DNA of 41,664 bases from Fibrobacter sp. (GTDB taxonomy: Bacteria; Fibrobacterota; Fibrobacteria; Fibrobacterales; Fibrobacteraceae), in the NCBI GenBank assembly GCA_024689485.1, contig JAILDK010000051.1:1-41664 (forward strand), given 5' to 3'. Numbering within the stretch: the stretch's first letter is position 1; the number at the start of each line of letters is the position of its first letter. The notes below the pieces were generated by a model. That model made no database searches, had not been told where the DNA came from, and was given only the letters and a program-made list of their open reading frames with translations. The position numbers were made by a program, and so were the translations under genes. Positions 3,476 to 16,183 of this stretch are shown piece by piece.

Positions 3476-4456
3476 ATGAATTGGACGACTCCCGTAGAAA
3501 TCCCTAAATCCGATATCCGCATCGACTGGAAGTCGAACATCGCCTTTATCGGATCTTGCTTTGCCGAAAACATTTCGCATAAATTCAGCGCGTTGCATTT
3601 TCACACGGCGGTGAACCCGTTCGGAATCGTTTACAATCCGCTTTCCGTGGCGAACATGCTCTCACGGATTGCACACGAAAAGCTCTACACCGCAGACGAA
3701 ATTTTCTTTGACGGCGAAATGTATGCCTCTTGGGATTTTCACGGGAGCTTCTCTTCCAAAGATTCGAACTTGTGCCTGCAACAGATGAACGAAGCCGTGC
3801 AGTCCGCACACGCCTTTTTGCAAAAGGCGGACGTCGTCTTTATCACGCTCGGCACGGCGTACTGCTACTTCCTTCAGGAATCCGGCGCCGTCGTTTCGAA
3901 CTGCCACCGTCAAAATGCAAATCTTTTTCATCGGGAACTCGTTTCTGTGGAACGAACGGTGCAGGCTCTCGAAAGCGCTGTTCAAAGTTTGCAAAACTTG
4001 AATCCGCAGGCGCACATCGTTTTAACTGTTTCACCGCTCCGCCATCTCAAGGATGGGGCTCACGGAAATCAGCTTTCCAAGGCGACGCTCTTGCTCGGTG
4101 CTAATTCTGTCGTAAAAGCTTTCAAAAATGTGGAATATTTTCCGAGCTATGAAATCGTGATGGATGAGCTTCGGGATTATAGATTCTACGCCGCCGACAT
4201 GATTCATCTTTCTTCGACCGCGGAAGACTACATCTTTGAAAAATGTGGCGAGGCTTATTTTAGCGGGGAAACCCGGCAAAATCTTTTACGCGTACAAAGC
4301 TTCCTCAAACTTTCGAACCATCGAATTCTCGACGCGGATTCTTCGAAGGTCAAAGCCTTTGCTCAAAGTGCCCTTTCGCAGGCAAAAGATTTGCAATCGC
4401 AAATTCCAGGCTTGGATTTAGGCGTAGAAGTCCGCTATTTTGAAGCCCTGCTTTAA
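3476..4456 (+). CDS. GSCFA domain protein (SGNH-hydrolase-like)
   Basis: The 326-residue protein carries the signature that names the GSCFA family: GSCFAENI at residues 26-33, followed by FGIVYNP. A conserved block SPLRHLKDGAHGNQLSKA lies mid-protein and an IHLS segment lies further on. GSCFA proteins resemble SGNH/GDSL esterases, with the serine of GS as candidate nucleophile; their substrate is unknown, although they are common in the FCB group. I used ATG 3476, preceded by GCGAAGGC, since the open frame upstream lies inside the UPF0210 gene. There is no signal peptide. It is probably the last gene of the ACT-UPF0210-GSCFA unit. Confidence 0.88.
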   Translation: MNWTTPVEIPKSDIRIDWKSNIAFIGSCFAENISHKFSALHFHTAVNPFGIVYNPLSVANMLSRIAHEKLYTADEIFFDGEMYASWDFHGSFSSKDSNLCLQQMNEAVQSAHAFLQKADVVFITLGTAYCYFLQESGAVVSNCHRQNANLFHRELVSVERTVQALESAVQSLQNLNPQAHIVLTVSPLRHLKDGAHGNQLSKATLLLGANSVVKAFKNVEYFPSYEIVMDELRDYRFYAADMIHLSSTAEDYIFEKCGEAYFSGETRQNLLRVQSFLKLSNHRILDADSSKVKAFAQSALSQAKDLQSQIPGLDLGVEVRYFEALL

Positions 4457-4493
4457 CTCTCGGCTTGGTTCGCACTCAGATTGGATTAGGGAA

Positions 4494-4522
4494 ATAAAAA
4501 AATCCTCTCCGCAAGGAGAGGA
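4494..4522 (-). terminator. Intrinsic terminator of small lipoprotein gene
   Basis: An 8-bp perfect stem (4503-4510 with 4515-4522) closes a GCAA-type tetraloop. Seven A's at 4496-4502 become a T run on the minus strand, so it terminates the lipoprotein transcript. There is no T run on the plus side. Confidence 0.85.
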
Positions 4523-4553
4523 CTTAGAGGAGGGAAGCTGTAACAAATACGGC

Positions 4554-4811
4554 TTAGAGAAGAGAAACCTGAGTGACGCCAGCAACGCCGAGGACTTCTT
4601 CGCCAGAAACTTCATCGATGATGATCGGGCAAAGGTTTTCATCTGCCACAATGGTACCATCGGTGCAATTGAAGGTTTCGGTCGACATAGCCGGTGCAGC
4701 GACAACTGGAGCCTGATCCGGTGTTGCGGCGACATTCGGAGTGTGAGTGCCAGCGCAAGCGGTGAAGAAGGTGGCGCCAAAGAGAAGAGCTGCAAGAGAA
4801 ATTTTTTTCAT
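4554..4811 (-). CDS. Small lipoprotein of unknown function
   Basis: The 85-residue product starts MKKISLAALLFGATFF and has a lipobox-like TAC followed by AG, so C19 should be lipidated and the protein anchored in a membrane. The mature part is short, proline/alanine/threonine-rich at first, then has two cysteines (C49 and C61) that could form a disulfide. It resembles no family I know. AAGGAA precedes the ATG. It is a single-gene unit with its own terminator and is divergent from the Omp85-like gene across a 192-base spacer. Confidence 0.75.
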   Translation of the reverse strand: MKKISLAALLFGATFFTACAGTHTPNVAATPDQAPVVAAPAMSTETFNCTDGTIVADENLCPIIIDEVSGEEVLGVAGVTQVSLL

Positions 4812-5003
4812 GGATTTAGGTTCCTTTTTTTTCCTCTCTTAAAATCACTTCCATTTTTCAGAAATCCAAGAAAAAAATGTGAAACAGCCTCCAATTTATA
4901 GTACAACTTGGAATATATCAGTCAAAAATAGGGACGAATCGTTTCAAAATGGTTCAAAACTAGCGTATGGAAAAAGTAATGATTTCTATATTGCCCGTCC
5001 GTC

Positions 5004-6137
5004 ATGAGGCTTTGGTGGAAAATAGTTGCGATCCTGTGCTTGGGATTTTCGTTCGCGTCTGCAGATGCTCTAGGTAGCTTGCAGGGTGTACCGCTTGTGG
5101 ACACGCTCCTCGTGGACTCTTCGAAGATCGTTTCCCGCCAAAAAGTGGATGACTTTCAGCGTTTTTCGCTGGTGCCTGTTTTAGGCTATACCGAAGAGAC
5201 CGAGGTCTTGTACGGTGCCATGGTTCTCTTCTTTTTAAAGCCCGATGAAAAAGGCGGCAAGGTTCCGGAAATCGGTTTGACCGCTTACGGTTCTTCGCGT
5301 GGACAGTGGCAGTTTGTGCTTGAACCGTTCTTTTACCTGTATCACGATCTGATCAGCGGCTGGTTTGCGCTTAAGTATCAGGATTGGATTACAAGCTATT
5401 ACGGAAACGGAAACAATCCGGATATCAACACGTTCACGAATTACGACAAGGAAAAGTTCTACTTTGGCTCCAAATTTGAATCGAAGGCGTTTGTTCCCGC
5501 CTGGTTCAAGTACGGGGTAGAATTCCACATTGAACACACCAAGATCCAGTTCCGCGAATCGGATTTGGAACTTCCCGATCCGCAGCCGGGCTGGCGAAAT
5601 GGACTCGGTTACCTGTTCGGAATCGATACGCGCGACAATACGAACTGGACCGCCCACGGCTTTTTGGCGGAATGGAAACAGCTCTTTTACGCAGAAGCCT
5701 TTGGCGACTATTCCTTTGACGTGGAAAGCCTGGATTTGAGAGGCTACTCGCCGATTCCTTTGCGGGCAACTGCCGCTTTGGGCCTTTTGTGGCAACGCGC
5801 CGAAGGGAATGTTCCGTTCGATATGCTCGCTGGCCCGGATGGCGTTCAGCGATTCCGCGGTGTCGAAAGCCTTTACTTTAACGACAAACAGTCGTTGATT
5901 TTGCAGTCGGAAATTCGTAAATATTTCGGCTGGAGACTCGGAGGACACGTGTTCTTTGAAGGCGGCAAGGTCGGCGGCTACTTTAGCGAACTCATGCGCA
6001 ATGACTGGCATCGGGCGGTGGGCTTTGGCGCCTTGCTCGGTTTGAATGTCAAAGAACGCCTGTTCGCCCGTGCGGACGTCTCCTGGGTGGATTTTGATCA
6101 CGTCGGTCTTTCGTTCTACGTGAGACAGGCGTTTTAA
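5004..6137 (+). CDS. Omp85-type (BamA/D15-like) outer-membrane barrel protein
   Basis: The 377-residue protein has a signal peptide (residues 1-20, cleavage near SADA) and then alternating beta-strand-like segments ending in an aromatic C-terminus (VRQAF), the outer-membrane barrel signature. GVQRFRG at 280-286, followed by a strand with SLILQSEIRKYF, matches the VRGY-type loop-6 motif of Omp85 barrels. No POTRA repeats fit in the approximately 40 residues before the barrel, so this is a barrel-only member. An in-frame TGA at 4980 fixes the start at ATG 5004, which has no Shine-Dalgarno. The thioesterase gene follows 14 bases later. Its cargo, if any, is unknown; a link to the lipid genes downstream is inferred from position. 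Confidence 0.8.
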   Translation: MRLWWKIVAILCLGFSFASADALGSLQGVPLVDTLLVDSSKIVSRQKVDDFQRFSLVPVLGYTEETEVLYGAMVLFFLKPDEKGGKVPEIGLTAYGSSRGQWQFVLEPFFYLYHDLISGWFALKYQDWITSYYGNGNNPDINTFTNYDKEKFYFGSKFESKAFVPAWFKYGVEFHIEHTKIQFRESDLELPDPQPGWRNGLGYLFGIDTRDNTNWTAHGFLAEWKQLFYAEAFGDYSFDVESLDLRGYSPIPLRATAALGLLWQRAEGNVPFDMLAGPDGVQRFRGVESLYFNDKQSLILQSEIRKYFGWRLGGHVFFEGGKVGGYFSELMRNDWHRAVGFGALLGLNVKERLFARADVSWVDFDHVGLSFYVRQAF

Positions 6138-6151
6138 AGGGAAGAACTGTT

Positions 6152-6562
6152 ATGGAAGTTTGCAAAATTCAGTACACAAGCCATATCGATGTCCGGTATG
6201 CAGAAACGGACCAGATGGGTGTGGTGCACCATTCCGTATATGCCATCTGGTTTGAACAGGCTCGAACGGAATTCTTTAAAACGGTCGGTTCTACCTATGC
6301 GGATGTCGAAAAACAGGGCTTTCTTTGCCCGGTCTTGGAATTGAACGTGCGTTACCGCTATCCGACCCATTACGGCGATACGGTAGATGTAGAAACGACC
6401 CTGATGCGCAAGGGAAAGCTCCATTTCAAGTTCCGCTACCGCGCCTATGTCAAAGGGACGCTCTGTGCGGAAGGATATTCCTTGCACTGCTTCTTAAAGG
6501 ACGGCAAACCGACCGCTGAATTGCCCCCTCAGGTGGATCTTTTCTTTCCACCAGAAAAATGA
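6152..6562 (+). CDS. YbgC-like acyl-CoA/acyl-ACP thioesterase (4HBT hot-dog)
   Basis: The 136-residue protein is a 4-hydroxybenzoyl-CoA-type thioesterase. The family motif RYAETDQMGVVHHSVY has the catalytic aspartate D20, followed by FEQAR. It should hydrolyse acyl-CoA or acyl-ACP thioesters in the cytoplasm. AAAGGGAAG sits eight bases before the ATG. It lies directly upstream of the ACP/ketosynthase operon on the same strand, so product release from that carrier protein is a reasonable but unproven role. Confidence 0.88.
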   Translation: MEVCKIQYTSHIDVRYAETDQMGVVHHSVYAIWFEQARTEFFKTVGSTYADVEKQGFLCPVLELNVRYRYPTHYGDTVDVETTLMRKGKLHFKFRYRAYVKGTLCAEGYSLHCFLKDGKPTAELPPQVDLFFPPEK

Positions 6563-6587
6563 TTGATTTCGTGGGAATTTGTCGCTG

Positions 6588-6611
6588 ATTTTGGCATCCT
6601 GTCGCCAAAAT
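6588..6611 (+). promoter_or_regulatory. Inverted repeat ATTTTGGC-N8-GCCAAAAT, candidate operator
   Basis: Two perfect 8-base arms (6588-6595 and 6604-6611) are separated by eight bases, about 68 bases before the ACP start. TCGCTGA occurs at 6582-6588 and again at 6622-6628, and the second copy runs into the 10-base palindrome CTGAATTCAG (6625-6634). There is no T run, so a terminator for the thioesterase gene is less likely. It could bind a regulator of the lipid operon. Confidence 0.4.
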
Positions 6612-6678
6612 GGGAGCTTGATCGCTGAATTCAGGTAATTTTTTTCTATTCTTTCAAAAAATCTAAAATGAGGTAAAA

Positions 6679-6924
6679 ATGAACAACGAAGAAGTAAAAA
6701 GTAAGCTCAAGGCATTCTTTATGTCGGATCTCGGCGTCGATGGCGACGTTTTGAACTACGACACTCCGCTTTTTGGCGAAGAAATCGGCCTTGACTCGGT
6801 GGACTCTTTGGAAATCATTTCCTTTGTCGACAGCAACTTTGGCGTTTCGATGACCGGTGCTGGCAAGGAACCGTTCCAGAGCATCGATACGATTGCTGAT
6901 TTCATTGAAAAGCACCAGGCTTAA
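6679..6924 (+). CDS. Acyl carrier protein
   Basis: This 81-residue acidic four-helix carrier has the phosphopantetheine site GLDSVDSLEI, with S40 as attachment serine. The DSVDSLE form resembles carriers of specialised type II PKS/aryl-polyene systems more than the DSLD form of housekeeping AcpP. GAGGT lies close upstream of the ATG. It opens a same-strand run with the ketosynthase fusion (40 bases on), reductase and dehydratase, and should carry their acyl intermediates. Confidence 0.9.
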   Translation: MNNEEVKSKLKAFFMSDLGVDGDVLNYDTPLFGEEIGLDSVDSLEIISFVDSNFGVSMTGAGKEPFQSIDTIADFIEKHQA

Positions 6925-6964
6925 TCGCTTTTTGCTTTCTTTACTGGTTTTTGGATAGGATATC

Positions 6965-9361
6965 ATGATTTCGAACGATAGTCGCTGTGTCGTTACCGGT
7001 CTTGGCGTGATTTGCGCTGTCGGTAACAATGTTGAAGAAACTTGGAAGAACGCTCTGAACTCCGTTTCGGGCATTCATAAGACCACTTCGGTGGATACGG
7101 ACAAGTGCTACGCGGACCTCGCTGCCGAAGTCCATTGCGACTCTTTGGACGCAATTGACGCTCCGGAAGAGAAGGATCGTGCTTCGAAGCTTTGCATCAA
7201 GGCTGCAAATGAAGCCCTGCAGGATGCGGGTCTTGGCAATTTTGCCGACGACCAGCGTGTAAGCGTGATTATCGGAAGCTGCGTCGGCGGCGTGATCAGT
7301 GTGGAACATTATCACCAGCACGGCAAAAACGCAAATGATATCCCCAAAATGCCGATTGCGGCCATTGCATCTCAGGTGGCAGAAACCTGTGGCGCTGGCG
7401 GCATTGTGACGAACGTGGCAAACGCTTGTGCGGCCGGTACGATTTCCATCGCTCTCGCTTGCGACTTGATTCGCGCGGGCAAGGCCGATGTCGTCGTCGC
7501 TGGCGGTGCGGATTCGTTTGCTGCCGTTCCGTATTCCGGATTCCTTTCTTTGCACGCCTTGGATGAAAACGGATGTTCTCCGTTCAACCATTGCAACGGC
7601 ATTACGCTTGGCGAAGGCGCGGGCATTGTTATTGTGGAATCCTATGCACACGCTCAAAAGCGCGGTGCAAAAACCTATTGCGAAATTCTCGGTTCGGGCG
7701 TGACGAGTGACGCTCACCATATTACGGCTCCGCGTGAAGATGCGCTTTGCTTGACGGAAGCGATGAACCGCGCTGTCAAGAATTCCGGCATCCAGAAGTC
7801 CGACATCGGCTATGTGAATGCACATGGTACGGGTACGGGCAAGAACGACAACGCGGAAATCACGGCTTTCACCAAGTTCTTTGGTGAAGAAAATCCGACG
7901 GTCAGTGTGAGCTCGACCAAGGTGATGACGGGCCACTGCCTCGGTGCAGCGGGCGCAATCGAAGCCGTGTTCAGCATCAAGGCTTTGACGACCGATACCG
8001 TGCTTCCGACTCTGCATTATTCCGCAGAAGATTCCGAAGCGTTGAAGGCGAAGGTCGGTCAGATGGACTTTGCACAGAACGTGCCGCACGCCAAGGCTTT
8101 GAAGTGCGTGATGAGCAACAACGTCGCTTTCGGCGGTACGAACGCGAGCATTGTGTTCTCCAAGGAATCGGCGAACGTCTCTTTCCAGACGGCAAAGGAC
8201 AAGAAGATCGCGGTGACGGGTCTTGGCATTGTAAGCCCTCTCGGCAACAGCAAGGCCGCTTACCTTTCTGCAGTCGAAAAGGATGTGAAGCCGGAAAGCG
8301 CTTCGATCCATTCGACCATCGCCTTGGATGATTACAAGGAACTCGGCATCAAGATGGCGTTCTACCGCAAGCTCGACAATCTGGGTCAGCTGCAGACGGT
8401 TTCGGGCATGCGTGCCCTCCAGGACGCAAACTTCAAGGTCTCCGAAGAAAATGCCAAGGAAATCGGCATTATCGTCGGTACCTCGGAAGGTGGACTCGGT
8501 GCCACTTATGATTTTGAAGAACTGATCACGAATCTCGGCAACGCTCAGGGCAGCGCCTTTAAGTTCCCGCATACGGTTTACAATGCGGCGGGCGGTTATC
8601 TGTCGATTTGCTCGGGCATCAAGGGTTATGGTGTGACGATTACGACGGGTCCGGTTTCCGGCCTCGACAGCATCGGTTACTCGATGAACGTGATTCACGA
8701 CGGTCAGGAAAAGGCGATGATGGCGACGGGTACGGATGAAAACCTCCCGATCATCACGGAATTCGCCCAGAAGTTGAATTTTGCCGCCAACCAGGTCGTC
8801 GCTCCGCATTCGGACTCCGAAGGCTGCGTCGTGGGCGACGGTAGCGTTTCCATTCTCATGGAAACCGAAGAACAGGCAAAGGCTCGCGATGCCAAGATTT
8901 ACTGCTACGCTCTCGGCTACGGCAACGGCCGTAAGAACGTGAAGTTCGGCAAAATCGAAGGCTCGGGCGAAGCTTTGGACAATGCAATCCAGGAAGCCTT
9001 GAAGGACGCGGGCATTTCGATCGATGAAATCGACGCTGTCTGCGGCTTTGCGGATGGCTTTAAGAAGATTGACAATATCGAAAAGGAATCTTTGATTCGC
9101 GTGTTCGGCGACAAGATTTCTTCGAAGCCGGTCTTTGAAGTGAAGGAACGCGTCGGTGAAGGCCGTGCTGCTTCGGCAACGCTCGCCGCTGCGGAAGCCG
9201 CTCTCCTCCTCAGTTCGGAACTGAAGAGCGAAAAGGCTTACTTCATTGCACAGGACGGCTCTGTTTCGACGAAGACGATGGAATCCAAGGATTTGAAGAA
9301 GATCCTCGTGATTTCGTTTGCTGCGGGTGGCTCTTACAGCGCAGTCGTTTTCGGTAAGTAA
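6965..9361 (+). CDS. Fused ketosynthase and chain-length-factor-like protein
   Basis: The 798-residue protein contains two complete beta-ketoacyl-ACP synthase folds. The first (about 1-405) keeps the full condensing site: C155 in NACAAGT, H287 in HGTGT, K319 and H324. The second (about 413-798, restarting with KIAVTGLGIVSP) has lost it: the cysteine position is P563 in TTGPVSG, the HGTGT segment is CGFADG near 693-698, and the second histidine is E732, though K727 five residues before it is kept. This is the pattern of a KS-alpha/KS-beta (chain-length factor) heterodimer, here in one chain. It should elongate acyl chains on the neighbouring ACP. In most type II systems these are separate genes. 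TAGGA lies four bases before the ATG. Confidence 0.9.
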   Translation: MISNDSRCVVTGLGVICAVGNNVEETWKNALNSVSGIHKTTSVDTDKCYADLAAEVHCDSLDAIDAPEEKDRASKLCIKAANEALQDAGLGNFADDQRVSVIIGSCVGGVISVEHYHQHGKNANDIPKMPIAAIASQVAETCGAGGIVTNVANACAAGTISIALACDLIRAGKADVVVAGGADSFAAVPYSGFLSLHALDENGCSPFNHCNGITLGEGAGIVIVESYAHAQKRGAKTYCEILGSGVTSDAHHITAPREDALCLTEAMNRAVKNSGIQKSDIGYVNAHGTGTGKNDNAEITAFTKFFGEENPTVSVSSTKVMTGHCLGAAGAIEAVFSIKALTTDTVLPTLHYSAEDSEALKAKVGQMDFAQNVPHAKALKCVMSNNVAFGGTNASIVFSKESANVSFQTAKDKKIAVTGLGIVSPLGNSKAAYLSAVEKDVKPESASIHSTIALDDYKELGIKMAFYRKLDNLGQLQTVSGMRALQDANFKVSEENAKEIGIIVGTSEGGLGATYDFEELITNLGNAQGSAFKFPHTVYNAAGGYLSICSGIKGYGVTITTGPVSGLDSIGYSMNVIHDGQEKAMMATGTDENLPIITEFAQKLNFAANQVVAPHSDSEGCVVGDGSVSILMETEEQAKARDAKIYCYALGYGNGRKNVKFGKIEGSGEALDNAIQEALKDAGISIDEIDAVCGFADGFKKIDNIEKESLIRVFGDKISSKPVFEVKERVGEGRAASATLAAAEAALLLSSELKSEKAYFIAQDGSVSTKTMESKDLKKILVISFAAGGSYSAVVFGK

Positions 9362-9380
9362 GGTTTAGCGAGGAGACAGG

Positions 9381-10112
9381 ATGAAGGTTGCACTGGTTAC
9401 AGGCGCTTCGAAGGGTATCGGCAAGGCTTGCGCCCTTCGTTTGGCTAAAGACGGTTACACGGTCGTTGTGAACTATTCGAGTTCTGACGCGGCTGCCCAG
9501 GAAACCCTTTCGCAGATCCAGGCGGCTGGCGGCGAAGGCATGATTTACAAGGCCGACGTTTCGAAGCTCGACCAGGTGAAGCTCATGATTCGCGAAGTCT
9601 TTAAGGCTTACGGTCGCATCGATGTTCTGGTGAACAATGCTGGCATTGTTCGCGACGAATATCTTTTGATGATCAATCCGGATACTCTCGACAAGTGCTT
9701 TGAATTGAACGTGAAGGGTTATATCTACTGCGCTCAGCAGGTCGCTCTCAAAATGTTCAAGCAAAAGTCTGGCGTGATCATCAACATGAGCTCGGTGAGC
9801 TCGAAGTTTGCTCTCGCCGGTCAGAGCGTTTACAGTGCCACGAAGGGCGCCGTGAATTCTTTGACGCAGACTCTTGCAAAGGAACTCGGCGGCTACGGCA
9901 TTCGCGTGAACGCGGTCGCTCCGGGCTTTATCGCTACCGAAATGATCGAAGCGATTCCGGAAGAAAAGCGCAAGGCTTACGTGGACCAGATTCCGCTGAA
10001 GCGTTTCGGCACGGCAGATGAAGTGGCGAACATGGTTTCCGCTCTTGTCTCGGATCAGTTTGCCTATGTGACGGGTCAGGTGTTCGTTTTGGACGGAGGC
10101 CTTTCTCTGTGA
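9381..10112 (+). CDS. 3-oxoacyl-ACP reductase (FabG-like SDR)
   Basis: This 243-residue short-chain dehydrogenase has the cofactor loop TGASKGIG (7-14), NNAG, the catalytic serine in MSSVSS and YSATK, and a C-terminal VTGQVFVLDGG typical of FabG. It should reduce 3-oxoacyl-ACP with NADPH after each condensation. GAGGAG sits five bases before the ATG. It follows the ketosynthase fusion by 19 bases, and its stop overlaps the dehydratase start (GTGA). A housekeeping FabG role cannot be excluded. Confidence 0.9.
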   Translation: MKVALVTGASKGIGKACALRLAKDGYTVVVNYSSSDAAAQETLSQIQAAGGEGMIYKADVSKLDQVKLMIREVFKAYGRIDVLVNNAGIVRDEYLLMINPDTLDKCFELNVKGYIYCAQQVALKMFKQKSGVIINMSSVSSKFALAGQSVYSATKGAVNSLTQTLAKELGGYGIRVNAVAPGFIATEMIEAIPEEKRKAYVDQIPLKRFGTADEVANMVSALVSDQFAYVTGQVFVLDGGLSL

Positions 10113-10558
10113 GCATGAACATTTACGAAATCAGTCAGAAGATCGCTCAGCGTCCGCCGTTTCAGATGGTGGAAAAGGTAACGGAACTCGTTCCGAACGA
10201 ATCCGCGACCGGCATCAAGAATGTGAGCGTGAACGAACCGTATTTTATGGGCCATTTTCCGGGAACCCCGATTATGCCGGGCGTTCTGATTGTGGAAAGC
10301 TGTGCCCAGCTCTGCTCCTTGGTGATCGAAAAGAAGCCGGAAGACTTGGACGACAAGCTTTATGTGCTTTTGAAGATCGACGGCTTTAAGTTTGTGAAGC
10401 CGGTGATCCCGGGCGATCAGCTGGAAATGACCGTGACGAAGACGAAGGGCGGTGGAGTCCTTGTGGGCTTTAACTGTGTCGTCAAGGTAAACGGTGCGGT
10501 ACATGCGAAGGGCGATTTGACCTTTACGACGATTCCGAAGGATTCCTTGGGCAAGTAA
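10109..10558 (+). CDS. 3-hydroxyacyl-ACP dehydratase (FabZ-like hot-dog)
   Basis: The 149-residue protein has the FabZ signature: RPPFQMV near residue 15, then YFMGHFPG with H49 and [12 protein letters not shown] with E63 as the catalytic pair. It should dehydrate 3-hydroxyacyl-ACP to the trans-2-enoyl form. I prefer GTG 10109, which overlaps the fabG-like stop by four bases and lies nine bases after CGGAGG; ATG 10115 is a possible alternative. No enoyl reductase gene is present in this run, so chains may be left unsaturated unless one is encoded elsewhere. Confidence 0.9.
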
Positions 10559-10569
10559 GGTCTTAGGCT

Positions 10570-11256
10570 GTGAAATCGATTGTCGAATTCTTTTTGAAGA
10601 TTATCGTTCGCTTGATTGAACGAGCGGGCTGGGCGTATTTTCATATCGCTTACCGTCCGCAGCTTGTCTTTACCGATCCATCGGTGCAGTCGACAAACTT
10701 GAAAACGCCTTCCCTGATTATTGCGAACCATACATCGACGAACGATCCGATTCTTTTGCTCGCCCTGTTCTTTCACAAGCGGAGCATTGTCGTGGCAAAA
10801 GACTGGTATGAAATGCCAAAGTTCCACTGGATCTTGAAACGTTCGAACGTGGTGCCGTGCGACCGCTTTAACCTGGACACGGAATGGGCTCTCAAGGCAA
10901 AGAAACAGCTTGAAGCAGGCAATTCGGTCATCATCTTCCCCGAAGGCAAGTGCCGCGAAGATGGCCTTTTGAACGAATTCAAAACAGGCTTTGCTTTCCT
11001 TGCCCGCAGCACGGGCGCTCCGGTGATTTCCATTGGACTCGACGGCATTTACAAGCGCGGACACAAGACCCGTGTCATTATCGGCAACGCCGAAAAGATT
11101 GAACGCGTTAAAGGCATCCCTTCGTCGGTTCACTTGGCGGAACGCAGCGAATACTTTAGACAAAAGGTTTGGGCTTTAAAACAGCAAGCCTTGAATCAAC
11201 CGCTCACGGAACTTCCGACAGCAGAAAATACGCCTGCAGAAGAGGTGGTGAATTGA
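10570..11256 (+). CDS. PlsC-like glycerophospholipid acyltransferase
   Basis: The 228-residue protein belongs to the PlsC/LPLAT family. Motif I is NHTSTND (H54, D59) and motif III is FPEG (123-126). A hydrophobic N-terminal segment suggests membrane association. It should transfer an acyl chain to a lysolipid or similar acceptor, so it could load the product of the preceding ACP pathway into a membrane lipid; this is inferred from context. The start is GTG, 11 bases after the dehydratase gene, with AAGGT upstream. Its TGA overlaps the TTG start of the patatin gene. Confidence 0.85.
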   Translation: MKSIVEFFLKIIVRLIERAGWAYFHIAYRPQLVFTDPSVQSTNLKTPSLIIANHTSTNDPILLLALFFHKRSIVVAKDWYEMPKFHWILKRSNVVPCDRFNLDTEWALKAKKQLEAGNSVIIFPEGKCREDGLLNEFKTGFAFLARSTGAPVISIGLDGIYKRGHKTRVIIGNAEKIERVKGIPSSVHLAERSEYFRQKVWALKQQALNQPLTELPTAENTPAEEVVN

Positions 11257-12104
11257 AAATCGGCTTGGTACTTGAAGGCGGTTCCCGCCAGACGATCTTT
11301 TCGGCAGGTGTCCTCGACACAATGCTCGATGAGAATATAGAGTTTCCGTATATCGGAGGCGTTTCGGCTGGCGGCCATGCGGCGATGAACTATGTGACAA
11401 AGCAGAAAGGTCGCTTGCGCCACATCATTATGCCGACCAAGTTGCAGCAGGGCAAAAAGAAGGCTCATCGCATTTTGGACGGCATTCATAAAGAATCCCG
11501 CGCGTTGCATTATGGTGCCGCTTACGGCCATATTCCGTTTGACTTTGAATCTTTCTTTGCGTCTCCGGTGGAATGCGAATTTACGCTGACCTGCTGTGAA
11601 ACGGGCCGTCCCGTTTACATGTCGGAGCATCAAGATCAAAAGCGTTTGCTCGACATTGTGAATGCGAGCTGCTCCGTGCCGATGCTCTTTCCGGTGGCGC
11701 AGATTGGCGACAAGCATTATGTGGACGGTTGCGTGACCGATCCGATTCCTTACCGCAGAGCCTTCGAAATGGGCTGTGACAAGGTCGTCGCGATTTCGAC
11801 ACATTATCCGGGCGAATCGGTTTCGGATTTTCGCAAGTACAGCGCCGTTTTGAATCCGATGTTCAAACGCAAGTATTTGGACCTTTTCCGCGCTCTGATG
11901 GTGCGCTATCGCCGTTACCAGCGGATGTTCAAAGACCTGGAGCGCTTAGAAAAAGAAGGCAAGGTCTTTTTGATGCGTCCGGAAATCGATCTTTGCGATC
12001 TTTTTGAAACGGATCTTGATAAGCTGAACGCGTCTTACTTCCACGGTTGCGATTACGCTCGCCGCAAGATGAATGCGCTCAAGGCTTTTTTGCAAGCGGA
12101 ATAA
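11253..12104 (+). CDS. Patatin-like phospholipase (YjjU-type)
   Basis: The 283-residue patatin-family protein has the Ser-Asp dyad: S38 in GGVSAGG and D158 in VDG. The oxyanion segment near residues 7-21 reads LEGGSRQ...SAGVLD, as in YjjU-like members. There is no signal peptide, so it is probably cytosolic or attached to the inner face of the membrane. The start is TTG 11253, seven bases after AGAGG and overlapping the acyltransferase stop (TTGA); the open frame upstream lies inside the acyltransferase gene. An acyltransferase and a lipase side by side suggest acyl-chain remodelling. Confidence 0.85.
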   Translation: MKIGLVLEGGSRQTIFSAGVLDTMLDENIEFPYIGGVSAGGHAAMNYVTKQKGRLRHIIMPTKLQQGKKKAHRILDGIHKESRALHYGAAYGHIPFDFESFFASPVECEFTLTCCETGRPVYMSEHQDQKRLLDIVNASCSVPMLFPVAQIGDKHYVDGCVTDPIPYRRAFEMGCDKVVAISTHYPGESVSDFRKYSAVLNPMFKRKYLDLFRALMVRYRRYQRMFKDLERLEKEGKVFLMRPEIDLCDLFETDLDKLNASYFHGCDYARRKMNALKAFLQAE

Positions 12105-12682: not shown

Positions 12683-15600
12683 ATGGGGAAGCAAAATACA
12701 TTCGCAAATTTTTTGGGATGCCTGTGGGTGATTCTTTGCTTTGCCGTACTCGGTTATGCAGGGGAAGCTCGAACCGTTAAAGTCGGTTGGTTTGAAAAAG
12801 AGAATTTTCAGGAAGGTCGTGCAGAAGGTTCTAAATCGGGCTATGGCTATGAAGTTTTGCAGGGTGTAGCTCGCTATGCGAACTGGGAACTGGAATATGT
12901 TCCTGGCACCTTGGAAGAGCATTTGGAAAGCCTTCGCCGCATGGATGGTAAGATCGATATCTTGGCGGGGCTCCCGGCGGATCCGGAATTTTTCCGTTTT
13001 GTGCGGTTTCCGAATGTTCCGATGACGATGGATGCGTATTTCGTTTATTGCCATCCGCAAGAAATGAATGAATATGTGGACTTTACGTCTCTCATCGGAA
13101 AGAAAATCGGTGTGACGGCGGGGTCTTTGGCCGAAAGGTCTGTGCGGCAGTGGAAGGCGATGACCAAGTTCGAATACACGATCGTTCCTTTCCATGATGA
13201 TACTGTTGCGCATATTTCTGCGGATACGCTCCGTGTCCGAGCTTTCCATGAAGGGAAGATTGACCTGAATGCCGATTTGGACAATCAGGTTTTTAAGGGA
13301 GATGGCATGCTGCCTGTGGTGCAGGTGGCTTCGGTCAATAAGTATATCGGCGTTTCTCTCAGAAGCATCTATTTGATGCCGGAACTCAGCCGTGCAATCG
13401 GAATTATTCGTTCGTCTTCGCCGCGCTTTTTTACGGACTTGGAAGACAAGTATTATAGCGAAACGGCGACGCGTAATATTTTGCCGGTGTCCGAAAAAAT
13501 TTGGATCAATAACCACGAGCAGTTGCATGTCGGTTATTTTGAAGGCTACGCTCCGTTCAGCGAAACGGGCAGCGATGGTCGTGATAACGGTCTTTTCCGT
13601 GACATCCTGAATTTTACCTTGGATGCTTACGGCATTCAGGCGACGATTACGTATCACGCCTACAAGAGCTATCGTCAGCTGGTTTCGGACCTTGTCTTTG
13701 GTAAAATCGATTTGGCGACGCCGATTTACGCCAATGATTACCGTTCTGAAAGGTACGGTTTTTTCCAAAGTATGACGGTGTCTGCTTCGCCGATGGTCTG
13801 GGTTTATCGCGATGACTCCAAGGCGAATTTACTGGACAACGTAGATAATCTGACAGACGAGCAGTGGTCTAAGATTCGAATTGCGATTTCAGAAGACACA
13901 CCGTTGCAGGAAGCGGTGTTTTCGGAGTATTATTCCAAGGCGACTGCAGTTCGCGTCAAGAACTGGCTGGAATGCATCAAGGCGGTGGAAAATGGCGATG
14001 CGGACGGTACTCTGCTGAACGTTTACCGATCGATGGTTAATTTGCGCCAAAATTATACTTTGAAGCGCAAAGAATTGAAGACGATGAGCCGCTGGTCTTT
14101 TGGCGTGAGCCGTGAAAATCCGGAACTGCTGAAGATTATGGACCGCGGTATTACGCTCTTTGGCCCGGATAATGTGGCAGAATCCTTGGTGCGCCATACC
14201 GAAGCTTCGTATGCGTTTACCTTCTGGGATTATGTGCAGTCGCATATCCGTGCGTCTTTGGGCGTATTGGTCTTTTTGATTGCCCTCGTTCTTTCGTTCT
14301 TGCTGTTTGTGATTTGCCAGAAGAGATTGCAGAAGGTTTTGAACAAGAAGGCGCATTTTGATCCGGTGACGGATTTGCCGAACCGCAGAGCGTTTAACGA
14401 TGACTTCCAGAAGCTTTCGGAAAAGCGCTTGGATATAGACCTTGTCGTCGGTGTGATGGACTTGGATGCCTTGAAGGATACGAACGATTCCTTGGGACAT
14501 GCGGCGGGAGATGAATTGATCCAAGGCGCGGGCGAATGTCTGGACGAGCTGATCGCTCCGCATGGAAAGGTGTATAAGGTCGGCGGGGATGAATTCCTTG
14601 CGATTTTCTGGTGCTCGGAAGAAGTCTTGCAGGATTTGCGACAGAAACTGAAAAAGAGCTTTGCTTCTTGGAAGGGTAAAAAGGTGGAAAGCCTTTCTGT
14701 TTCGTGCGGCTTTGCAACGCGTCGAGAATTCCACGGTTATTCTTTAGGCGAATTGATGCGTGCTGCGGATGACCGCATGTACAAGGAAAAATTCTCGCAC
14801 CGTGCCAGTATCCGTGTGAAGACAAAGTCCGGCGTTTTCAAGAACGTGGCGGGCTATGGCAAGCTTTTCAAGAACGATGAAGAAAAGACGATGCTCGACT
14901 CCTTCATTGCGGCTTATGAAACGCAGTACGATACGCTGACGAGTCTTCCGACGATGTCTTACTTCCTCGAATTGCTCGAAGCTCCGGAACATCCGGTTAC
15001 GAAATCTGGGAAGACTCCGGTGATGATTTCCTTTAACCTGAACGGGATGAAGGGTTATAATACGCGTTTCGGGCTTCAGGAAGGCGATGAACTTTTGATC
15101 GCTTTTGCCGACATTTTGAAGAAGGTCTTCGGCAAGAATTGCTGCTCTCGTTTTGGCGAAGACCGCTTCTATGCTGTGACGACGAATGAGTTTGTCGAAG
15201 AAAATGTGAACCGCGTTTTCGATTTGATGGCGCAGTGCAATAACGGTACGTCGTTGAAGGTACGCGCAGGTATTTACGTTTACGATTCCGACAATCCGAG
15301 CTTTGCAAGCCTTGCTGCGGACCGTGCTCGTACCGCTTGTGACCATAACCGCGATTACGATTCTCACTTCACCTACTTCGATGAAAAGATGAAGAAGAGT
15401 CTTGAAATCCGTGACTTTGTCATCTTTAACATCGACAACGCGATGGCTTTGGGGCATATCCAGGCGTATTACCAGCCGAAGGTCAGCACGGCAACGGGCA
15501 AGCTGGTGGGCTTTGAAGTCCTGGCGCGTTGGATCGATCCGGTGCTCGGCTTTATTTCGCCGGCGGACTTTATTCCGGTGCTTGAAGAATTCGGCTTGAC

Positions 15601-16183
15601 TTACAAGCTGGACATGTTCATGGTGGAAGAACTCGCGAGAGACTACAAGACGACGTTCGGTATGGGCTTCCAGGATGTCCCGACGTCTTTCAACCTTTCG
15701 CGTATGGACTTCATTGTGGGCAATCCGCGTGAAGAAATTCAGAGAATCTTGGAAGAATACAAGATTCCGATGCGGTATTTCCAGGTGGAAATCACGGAAT
15801 CCTGCGTGATGACCGATCCGAAGAAGATGAAGAATGAAATCGAACTCTTCCGTTCGGCTGGCTTTGAAGTGCTGATGGATGACTTCGGCAGTGGCTATTC
15901 TTCGCTGGGCACGCTCCGCGAATTTGAATTCGACGAAATCAAGATCGATATGAGCTTTATGCGCAACTTTGGAGAAAAGTCCAAGGCGATCATTTCTTCC
16001 ATTGTGGCGATGGCGAAAAAGCTTGGCGTTCGCACGCTTTGCGAAGGCGTAGAAACGCAGGAACAGGTGGACTTCTTGAAGGAAATCGGCTGCGAATGCA
16101 TTCAGGGATGGTTCTACGGCAAGGCGGAACCGCTGAATATTGTTGTCGAAAAGTGGCTGAAACCGCTGGAATCGAAGTCGTAA
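12683..16183 (+). CDS. Periplasmic-binding GGDEF/GGDEF/EAL signalling protein
   Basis: This 1166-residue c-di-GMP protein has a signal peptide or anchor (1-26), two consecutive solute-binding (SBP_bac_3-like) domains in the periplasm (about 30-280 and 285-505), a membrane helix (about 524-546), and then cytoplasmic domains. The first GGDEF domain (about 555-715) has an intact G634-GDEF. The second (about 740-910) is degenerate, with GEDRF at 825-829. The EAL domain (about 920-1160) reads EVL at 945-947 and keeps DDFGSG from D1066 plus EITES, KIDMSF and CEGVET. It may both make and degrade c-di-GMP in response to a small ligand. The ligand is unknown. There is no clear ribosome site. Confidence 0.9.
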   Translation: MGKQNTFANFLGCLWVILCFAVLGYAGEARTVKVGWFEKENFQEGRAEGSKSGYGYEVLQGVARYANWELEYVPGTLEEHLESLRRMDGKIDILAGLPADPEFFRFVRFPNVPMTMDAYFVYCHPQEMNEYVDFTSLIGKKIGVTAGSLAERSVRQWKAMTKFEYTIVPFHDDTVAHISADTLRVRAFHEGKIDLNADLDNQVFKGDGMLPVVQVASVNKYIGVSLRSIYLMPELSRAIGIIRSSSPRFFTDLEDKYYSETATRNILPVSEKIWINNHEQLHVGYFEGYAPFSETGSDGRDNGLFRDILNFTLDAYGIQATITYHAYKSYRQLVSDLVFGKIDLATPIYANDYRSERYGFFQSMTVSASPMVWVYRDDSKANLLDNVDNLTDEQWSKIRIAISEDTPLQEAVFSEYYSKATAVRVKNWLECIKAVENGDADGTLLNVYRSMVNLRQNYTLKRKELKTMSRWSFGVSRENPELLKIMDRGITLFGPDNVAESLVRHTEASYAFTFWDYVQSHIRASLGVLVFLIALVLSFLLFVICQKRLQKVLNKKAHFDPVTDLPNRRAFNDDFQKLSEKRLDIDLVVGVMDLDALKDTNDSLGHAAGDELIQGAGECLDELIAPHGKVYKVGGDEFLAIFWCSEEVLQDLRQKLKKSFASWKGKKVESLSVSCGFATRREFHGYSLGELMRAADDRMYKEKFSHRASIRVKTKSGVFKNVAGYGKLFKNDEEKTMLDSFIAAYETQYDTLTSLPTMSYFLELLEAPEHPVTKSGKTPVMISFNLNGMKGYNTRFGLQEGDELLIAFADILKKVFGKNCCSRFGEDRFYAVTTNEFVEENVNRVFDLMAQCNNGTSLKVRAGIYVYDSDNPSFASLAADRARTACDHNRDYDSHFTYFDEKMKKSLEIRDFVIFNIDNAMALGHIQAYYQPKVSTATGKLVGFEVLARWIDPVLGFISPADFIPVLEEFGLTYKLDMFMVEELARDYKTTFGMGFQDVPTSFNLSRMDFIVGNPREEIQRILEEYKIPMRYFQVEITESCVMTDPKKMKNEIELFRSAGFEVLMDDFGSGYSSLGTLREFEFDEIKIDMSFMRNFGEKSKAIISSIVAMAKKLGVRTLCEGVETQEQVDFLKEIGCECIQGWFYGKAEPLNIVVEKWLKPLESKS

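Follow-up and report, generated by a model that had tools for sequence, protein, structure and literature searches.

Introduction

Polyketide and fatty-acid systems that join a ketosynthase (KS) and a chain length factor (CLF) in one chain include PfaC, a component of a multidomain type I megasynthase, and the cyl group, in which the streptococcal CylI is probably itself a KS-CLF fusion. The cyl operons produce the polyene granadaene with an ACP, KS, KR and DH (PMC6985545). In aryl-polyene (APE) clusters, ApeC is the chain length factor complexed with ApeO, the elongating KS; these clusters include acyltransferases for lipid attachment, and the predicted starter of the E. coli cluster is 4-hydroxybenzoate (PMC8253772). 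ApeO-ApeC alone yields fully elongated polyenes in vitro (PMC8358021).

Here we describe a cassette built around a single-chain KS-CLF in a 41,664-nucleotide stretch of DNA from Fibrobacter sp. (contig JAILDK010000051.1; the 41.7-kb window). No account of this head-group-free cassette family or of its spread over three phyla was found in the searchable literature, and both appear to be undescribed. Nothing usable came from the literature on KS-CLFs in Fibrobacter, on the pigments or lipids of this genus, on polyketides of Lachnospira eligens or on 9S5H, a well-scoring KS pair in the PDB; in a catalogue of type II PKS clusters, the names Fibrobacter, Treponema and Lachnospira do not appear in the main text.

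Results

Organization of the cassette

The features of the cassette are collected in Table 1. As the initial annotation had it, the KR and FabZ follow the fusion and the PlsC-like and patatin-like genes end the run; the ACP, however, precedes the fusion rather than following it, and the patatin most likely starts at the TTG at 11253 rather than at 11169. This TTG overlaps the PlsC stop codon by four bases and is preceded by AGGTGG, which resembles a ribosome site. A four-base overlap is also seen between the FabZ start and the KR stop, and the two overlaps suggest a single transcript for the run 6679-12104. A promoter and terminator scan gave a result no better than chance. No dedicated enoyl reductase was recognised in any locus read, in keeping with the compact, enoyl reductase-free set first proposed.

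Two upstream genes are part of the run in close relatives. The 4HBT thioesterase adjoins the cassette in all six window-genus genomes and in some sister-genus genomes, was not beside it in the Treponema or Clostridia loci compared, and probably belongs to the Fibrobacter cassette. The Omp85-like barrel matched no Pfam family; its AF2 model is all-beta with low confidence (pLDDT 52.7), and the closest PDB structures are the BamA/TamA barrels. It adjoins the cassette in many Fibrobacter loci, and it is possible that it belongs to the Fibrobacter cassette as well.

Table 1. Positions of the cassette features in the window and, in the last row, of a recurring neighbor at other loci.
Feature	Position	Strand	Evidence
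Omp85-like outer-membrane barrel without POTRA domains	5004..6137	+	AF2 model, PDB matches
4HBT (YbgC/FadM-like) thioesterase	6152..6562	+	PF13279 65.4 bits; TIGR00051 above cut-off
ACP, Ser in GLDSVD	6679..6924	+	Pfam PF00550 27.4 bits
KS-CLF fusion, 798 aa	6965..9361	+	two full ketoacyl synthase matches
Catalytic KS half, residues 1-400	6965..8164	+	C155, H287, K319, H324
CLF half, residues 408-798	8186..9358	+	P563, CGFADG, E732; no catalytic Cys/His
FabG-type KR	9381..10112	+	TIGR01830 260.8 bits
FabZ-type dehydratase	10109..10558	+	NF000582 138.3 bits, above cut-off 113
PlsC-like lysophospholipid acyltransferase	10570..11256	+	PF01553 77.5 bits; NHTSTND and FPEG motifs
Patatin-like phospholipase, GVSAG	11253..12104	+	PF01734 59.8 bits; DUF6363 50.4 bits
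FMN reductase (loci L118; L122; L132; L091)	8431..9168; 8525..9283; 15289..16011; about 9988

Active sites and fold of the fusion

The initial annotation read the chain as a catalytic KS followed by a second, inactive KS of CLF type, and the residues that it named were confirmed. In the CLF half, P563 replaces the Cys (motif TTGPVSGLDS), CGFADG replaces the first His motif, and E732 stands at the second His. Alignment of the active-site columns confirmed the pattern of catalytic KS and dead CLF in 11 family members, with the Cys and both His missing from the second half in every member checked. At the Cys position the Fibrobacter and Treponema members have Pro, those of Lachnospira and the other Clostridia Ala; the fusion's CLF lacks the Gln typical of this site in actinorhodin-type CLFs. 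The presence of KS-alpha and KS-beta in one polypeptide is real, but it has precedents and is not unique: PfaC and the cyl-like fusions of Priestia and other Fibrobacterota share it.

Beta-ketoacyl synthase models align to both halves end to end. The FabF model TIGR03150 scores 343 bits on the KS half and 146 bits on the CLF half, both under its cut-off of 493.75. The CLF half is divergent in sequence, and its phmmer matches in the PDB include the act CLF 1tqy_B and 6smo_C. An AlphaFold2 model of the fusion, built from 25 relatives, is of moderate confidence (pLDDT 75, pTM 0.81). Its best PDB match is the PfaC KS-CLF didomain 6riw (TM 0.76 by query length), which alone among the top matches spans both domains as a KS-CLF, nearly all others being single KS folds. 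With 6riw as both the best and the two-domain match, an internal KS:CLF pair is the most likely fold of the chain.

Occurrence and neighborhoods

A sequencing join of two genes, which the initial annotation had allowed for, was rejected on the full-length, stop-free copies in dozens of independent genomes. In a first survey, full-length fused copies 82-96% identical were present in the five other window-genus and in two sister-genus genomes. A CLF-half search of 168 genomes of the phylum found this half at 75-95% identity in 6/6 window-genus and, by count from its table, 52/80 sister-genus genomes, the fusion being collinear in these; in the rest of the phylum its matches reached only about 24-32%. 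The named records in these two genera include Fibrobacter intestinalis and F. succinogenes.

Natural fusions, which the initial annotation had proposed to count, were found in Fibrobacter, Treponema, Lachnospira eligens and other Clostridia. A CLF-half scan of 84,980 species genomes, a pattern scan and not exhaustive, returned 50 loci. Most are from Fibrobacter; a dozen lie in Treponema of rumen or gut, two in Clostridia and one on a short contig binned as Bacteroidales. Identity to the window fusion is 66-75% in rumen Treponema, 60% in L. eligens and 44% in other Clostridia; plasmid records place the L. eligens copy, 60% identical over its full length, on a megaplasmid of 626,744 bases. Four fused relatives came from a sample of 391 Clostridia-class genomes and four from 393 Spirochaetota genomes. 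Spread by viruses was considered, and viral contigs gave no relative with the patterns used. The 3.1-kb contig labelled Bacteroidales (L131, JAGCXP010000013.1) carries a Fibrobacter-type barrel (67%) and CLF (85%) and may be mis-binned Fibrobacter.

The core of ACP, KS-CLF, KR and FabZ is kept at nearly all loci in Fibrobacter, Treponema, Lachnospira and Clostridia, and locus comparison finds the ACP 70-100% identical and in the same position at nearly all Fibrobacter and Treponema family loci. PlsC is present in most family loci overall, and PlsC with patatin in most Fibrobacter and many Treponema loci. The L. eligens set runs on with a malonyltransferase (MAT), AccD, AccA, a flavoprotein and PlsX. 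Two Treponema loci (L120 and L127) keep the ACP and KS-CLF, and KR, FabZ, PlsC and patatin are absent from the next 5 kb. A flavoprotein with an FMN-reductase fold is a repeated neighbor at Treponema, Lachnospira and some Fibrobacter loci, and a family scan returned a fold for it and no function. This flavodoxin-fold FMN reductase, with CxGCxxCW, stands beside the cassette in three phyla (Table 1); a 40% homologue is encoded outside the window contig in the window genome (C97:1481-2194).

Descent of the fusion

The initial annotation had also proposed a tree of each half. In a joint tree of family KS halves, family CLF halves and reference KSs, the KS halves are monophyletic (100/100), as are the CLF halves (98/95). 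Both halves branch alike, with Clostridia, then Lachnospira, then two Treponema groups, and Fibrobacter nested beside the second of these. The family KRs likewise fall into a single clade (100/100), in which Fibrobacter again sits next to that Treponema group. As KS, CLF and KR each form one family, the fusion and its cassette were inherited together as a unit and moved between phyla by horizontal spread.

A KS-only tree groups the family with the KS halves of Priestia and of two other Fibrobacterota (G036 and G037) and with the ApeO-type KSs, split at 100/100 from FabF, FabB, ApeR and the Streptomyces KS. Constraining the family with FabF alone was rejected in this tree (p-AU 0.0018). By these trees, the KS half belongs to an ApeO/cyl-like lineage and not to FabF. 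In the joint tree, the placement of G011, the Streptomyces CLF, E. coli ApeC and further long rows is uncertain, as are the deeper joins (long branches); because of these long-branch placements, we do not claim a single origin for all fused KS-CLFs.

Other fatty-acid and polyene genes

Genome-wide statements here rest on family and protein searches. Outside the cassette, the window genome has two stand-alone FabFs, on contigs C104 and C75, as well as additional ACPs and one more FabA/FabZ-family gene; a FabV-like gene, named by eye, adjoins the C75 FabF. Separate FabFs are also present in 4/4 Treponema and 2/2 Clostridia genomes checked. The fusion is missing from 28 of the 80 sister-genus genomes, several of them near-complete. 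Given the separate fab genes and the near-complete genomes that lack the fusion, the cassette is accessory and independent of the primary fatty-acid synthase.

The same genome carries a split APE cluster apart from the cassette (contig C94; locus L007, 6535-19790), with ApeR (55%), an ApeO-like KS, ApeC (31%), MMPL, an AMP ligase, GT2, an ApeK-like thioesterase (38%) and acyltransferases. Since this genuine split cluster is present, the fused cassette is a separate, second system rather than an APE cluster stripped of genes. Within the window, tblastn queries with AMP ligase, MMPL, GT2, ApeC, GCV_T, malonyltransferase and AccD gave no match, and an ApeR query matched only the fusion itself. 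APE membership was rejected on gene content: the cassette has no separate ApeO and ApeC proteins and no AMP ligase, MMPL, GT2 or ApeR. The absence of AMP ligase and MMPL agrees with the initial annotation; the ammonia lyase that it had listed with them does not hold as an APE hallmark (PMC8253772).

Rumen Treponema genomes with the cassette also have neighbouring extra KS genes resembling an APE-type pair (G168 C17:236822-240017; G171 C179:3599-9755). Contig C7 of the window genome may hold an NRPS cluster, as frames of more than 2,000 aa there contain several PP-binding domains.

The Priestia megaterium pBM500 locus holds MAT, FabG, ACP, FabZ, a GCV_T protein and a KS-CLF fusion, and on this content it is called cyl-like. 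GCV_T queries from Priestia and G036, used for a CylF (GCV_T) beside the KS, found nothing in the window, and cyl membership was rejected on this gene content. No ABC-transporter Pfam match was found among the genes scanned at 3488-12101. Other Fibrobacterota (G011, G036, G037) carry cyl-like KS-CLF fusions with GCV_T genes. Such fusions, different from that of the window, lie beside GCV_T-domain genes at L047 4399-9958, L048 8007-13783 and L049 5566-10595, which would be granadaene-like clusters outside the Gram-positives.

Discussion

The cassette is best read as an auxiliary, highly reducing type II PKS/FAS that makes an unsaturated, probably polyene, acyl chain put on an envelope lipid, a reading to which we assign a probability of roughly 0.6. 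It has the catalytic KS with a dead CLF, and the dedicated ACP, KR and DH with no dedicated enoyl reductase, of a highly reducing type II PKS. Gene content, active-site state, conservation, horizontal spread, the lineage of the KS and the independence from the primary fatty-acid synthase are the established parts of this reading; the polyene state, the chain length, the lipid attachment and the envelope role are what we infer. A housekeeping malonyltransferase would load malonyl units on the dedicated ACP, and the single-chain KS-CLF, as an internal pseudo-heterodimer, would extend a starter acyl group iteratively. The dedicated KR and FabZ would reduce and then dehydrate each unit, and because no dedicated enoyl reductase was found, the double bonds would probably be retained in a polyene or polyunsaturated chain. 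PlsC (PlsX in Lachnospira) would move the chain onto an envelope lyso-lipid, and the patatin, thioesterase and Omp85-like barrel may serve in release, remodelling or placement. The presence of PlsC in most loci and of PlsX near MAT, AccD and AccA in Lachnospira points to lipid acylation. The lack of a starter-loading gene, an exporter or a glycosyltransferase counts against this reading, and the product, as first noted, is not nameable from sequence.

The main rival, which we consider unlikely, is an auxiliary elongation set for phospholipid tailoring, whose specialised product would be a saturated, 3-hydroxy or mono-unsaturated acyl chain of a length fixed by the CLF. An enoyl reductase could act in trans, so a saturated product through the housekeeping enzyme is possible. 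The KR and FabZ are of ordinary FabG/FabZ types, the L. eligens neighborhood amounts to a fatty-acid-to-phospholipid set, and membrane remodelling suits PlsC and patatin. However, the KS half is of the ApeO/cyl-like lineage, simple elongation does not usually involve a dedicated CLF and ACP, and no locus read offered a dedicated enoyl reductase. The ordinary FabG and FabZ could also fit the organism's primary fatty-acid synthase, which we find scarcely credible and rejected: natural near-complete genomes do without the fusion, and the window genome keeps its two FabFs, another ACP and another FabA/FabZ-family gene elsewhere. The initial annotation would have taken FabF-like halves and a lack of other fab genes as the marks of a primary synthase; other fab genes are present, and the KS half lies outside FabF. 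The cassette might instead be what remains of a granadaene-type (cyl) or aryl-polyene cluster after loss of the genes for head group and export, which would account for the common KS-half lineage and for the fusion of KS and CLF in cyl-like loci as well. This is nonetheless very improbable, given only 29-37% identity to the Priestia fusion, the lack of GCV_T, MMPL, AMP ligase, GT2 and ApeC homologues in the window, a reduced form that is stable across three phyla, and the genome's own separate APE cluster.

Beyond the polyene-lipid reading itself, we put forward, tentatively and with slightly less than even odds, that the ACP, single-chain KS-CLF, KR, FabZ and PlsC are a new minimal class of polyene-lipid synthase that passed horizontally between fibre-degrading Fibrobacter, Treponema and Clostridia of the gut, and that its product, formed under strict anaerobiosis, is a polyunsaturated envelope lipid that lacks a head group and is as yet undescribed. 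If so, bacteria that break down fibre and abound in gut and rumen, among them the human commensal L. eligens, would need no oxygen and as few as four to six genes to produce a novel unsaturated lipid. The single-chain, full-length KS-CLF and its discrete partners would also offer a compact system in which to test how chain length is set by a CLF. Strains that naturally carry or lack the cassette put the product within direct reach.

Comparison with known systems

The cassette resembles APE clusters in a KS of the ApeO elongating lineage, in a KR and DH without enoyl reductase, and in an acyltransferase and thioesterase nearby. It differs in carrying KS and CLF on one chain instead of two proteins, in a full-length CLF as against the half-size ApeC, and in having no AMP ligase, MMPL, GT2 or second KS. 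With cyl-like loci it shares the single-chain KS-CLF accompanied by ACP, FabG and FabZ, and the KS halves are close in the tree; the fusions themselves are distant, the GCV_T gene of cyl-like loci and the malonyltransferase of Priestia and G036 are both absent from the window, and no ornithine or sugar genes were seen at the window cassette. Every step has the fold and chemistry of the housekeeping FabF/FabG/FabZ synthase, although the KS is of another lineage, a CLF is added, and the genome keeps a separate FabF, ACP and FabZ. The cassette is not a PUFA (pfa) synthase, in which multidomain type I proteins join tandem ACPs and DH domains to the KS-CLF; its chain consists of KS and CLF only, beside a single stand-alone ACP. 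PfaC is nevertheless its closest full-length structural match and is likewise a single-chain KS-CLF, whereas the Fibrobacter protein, 17% identical to it, is a stand-alone didomain with discrete partners.
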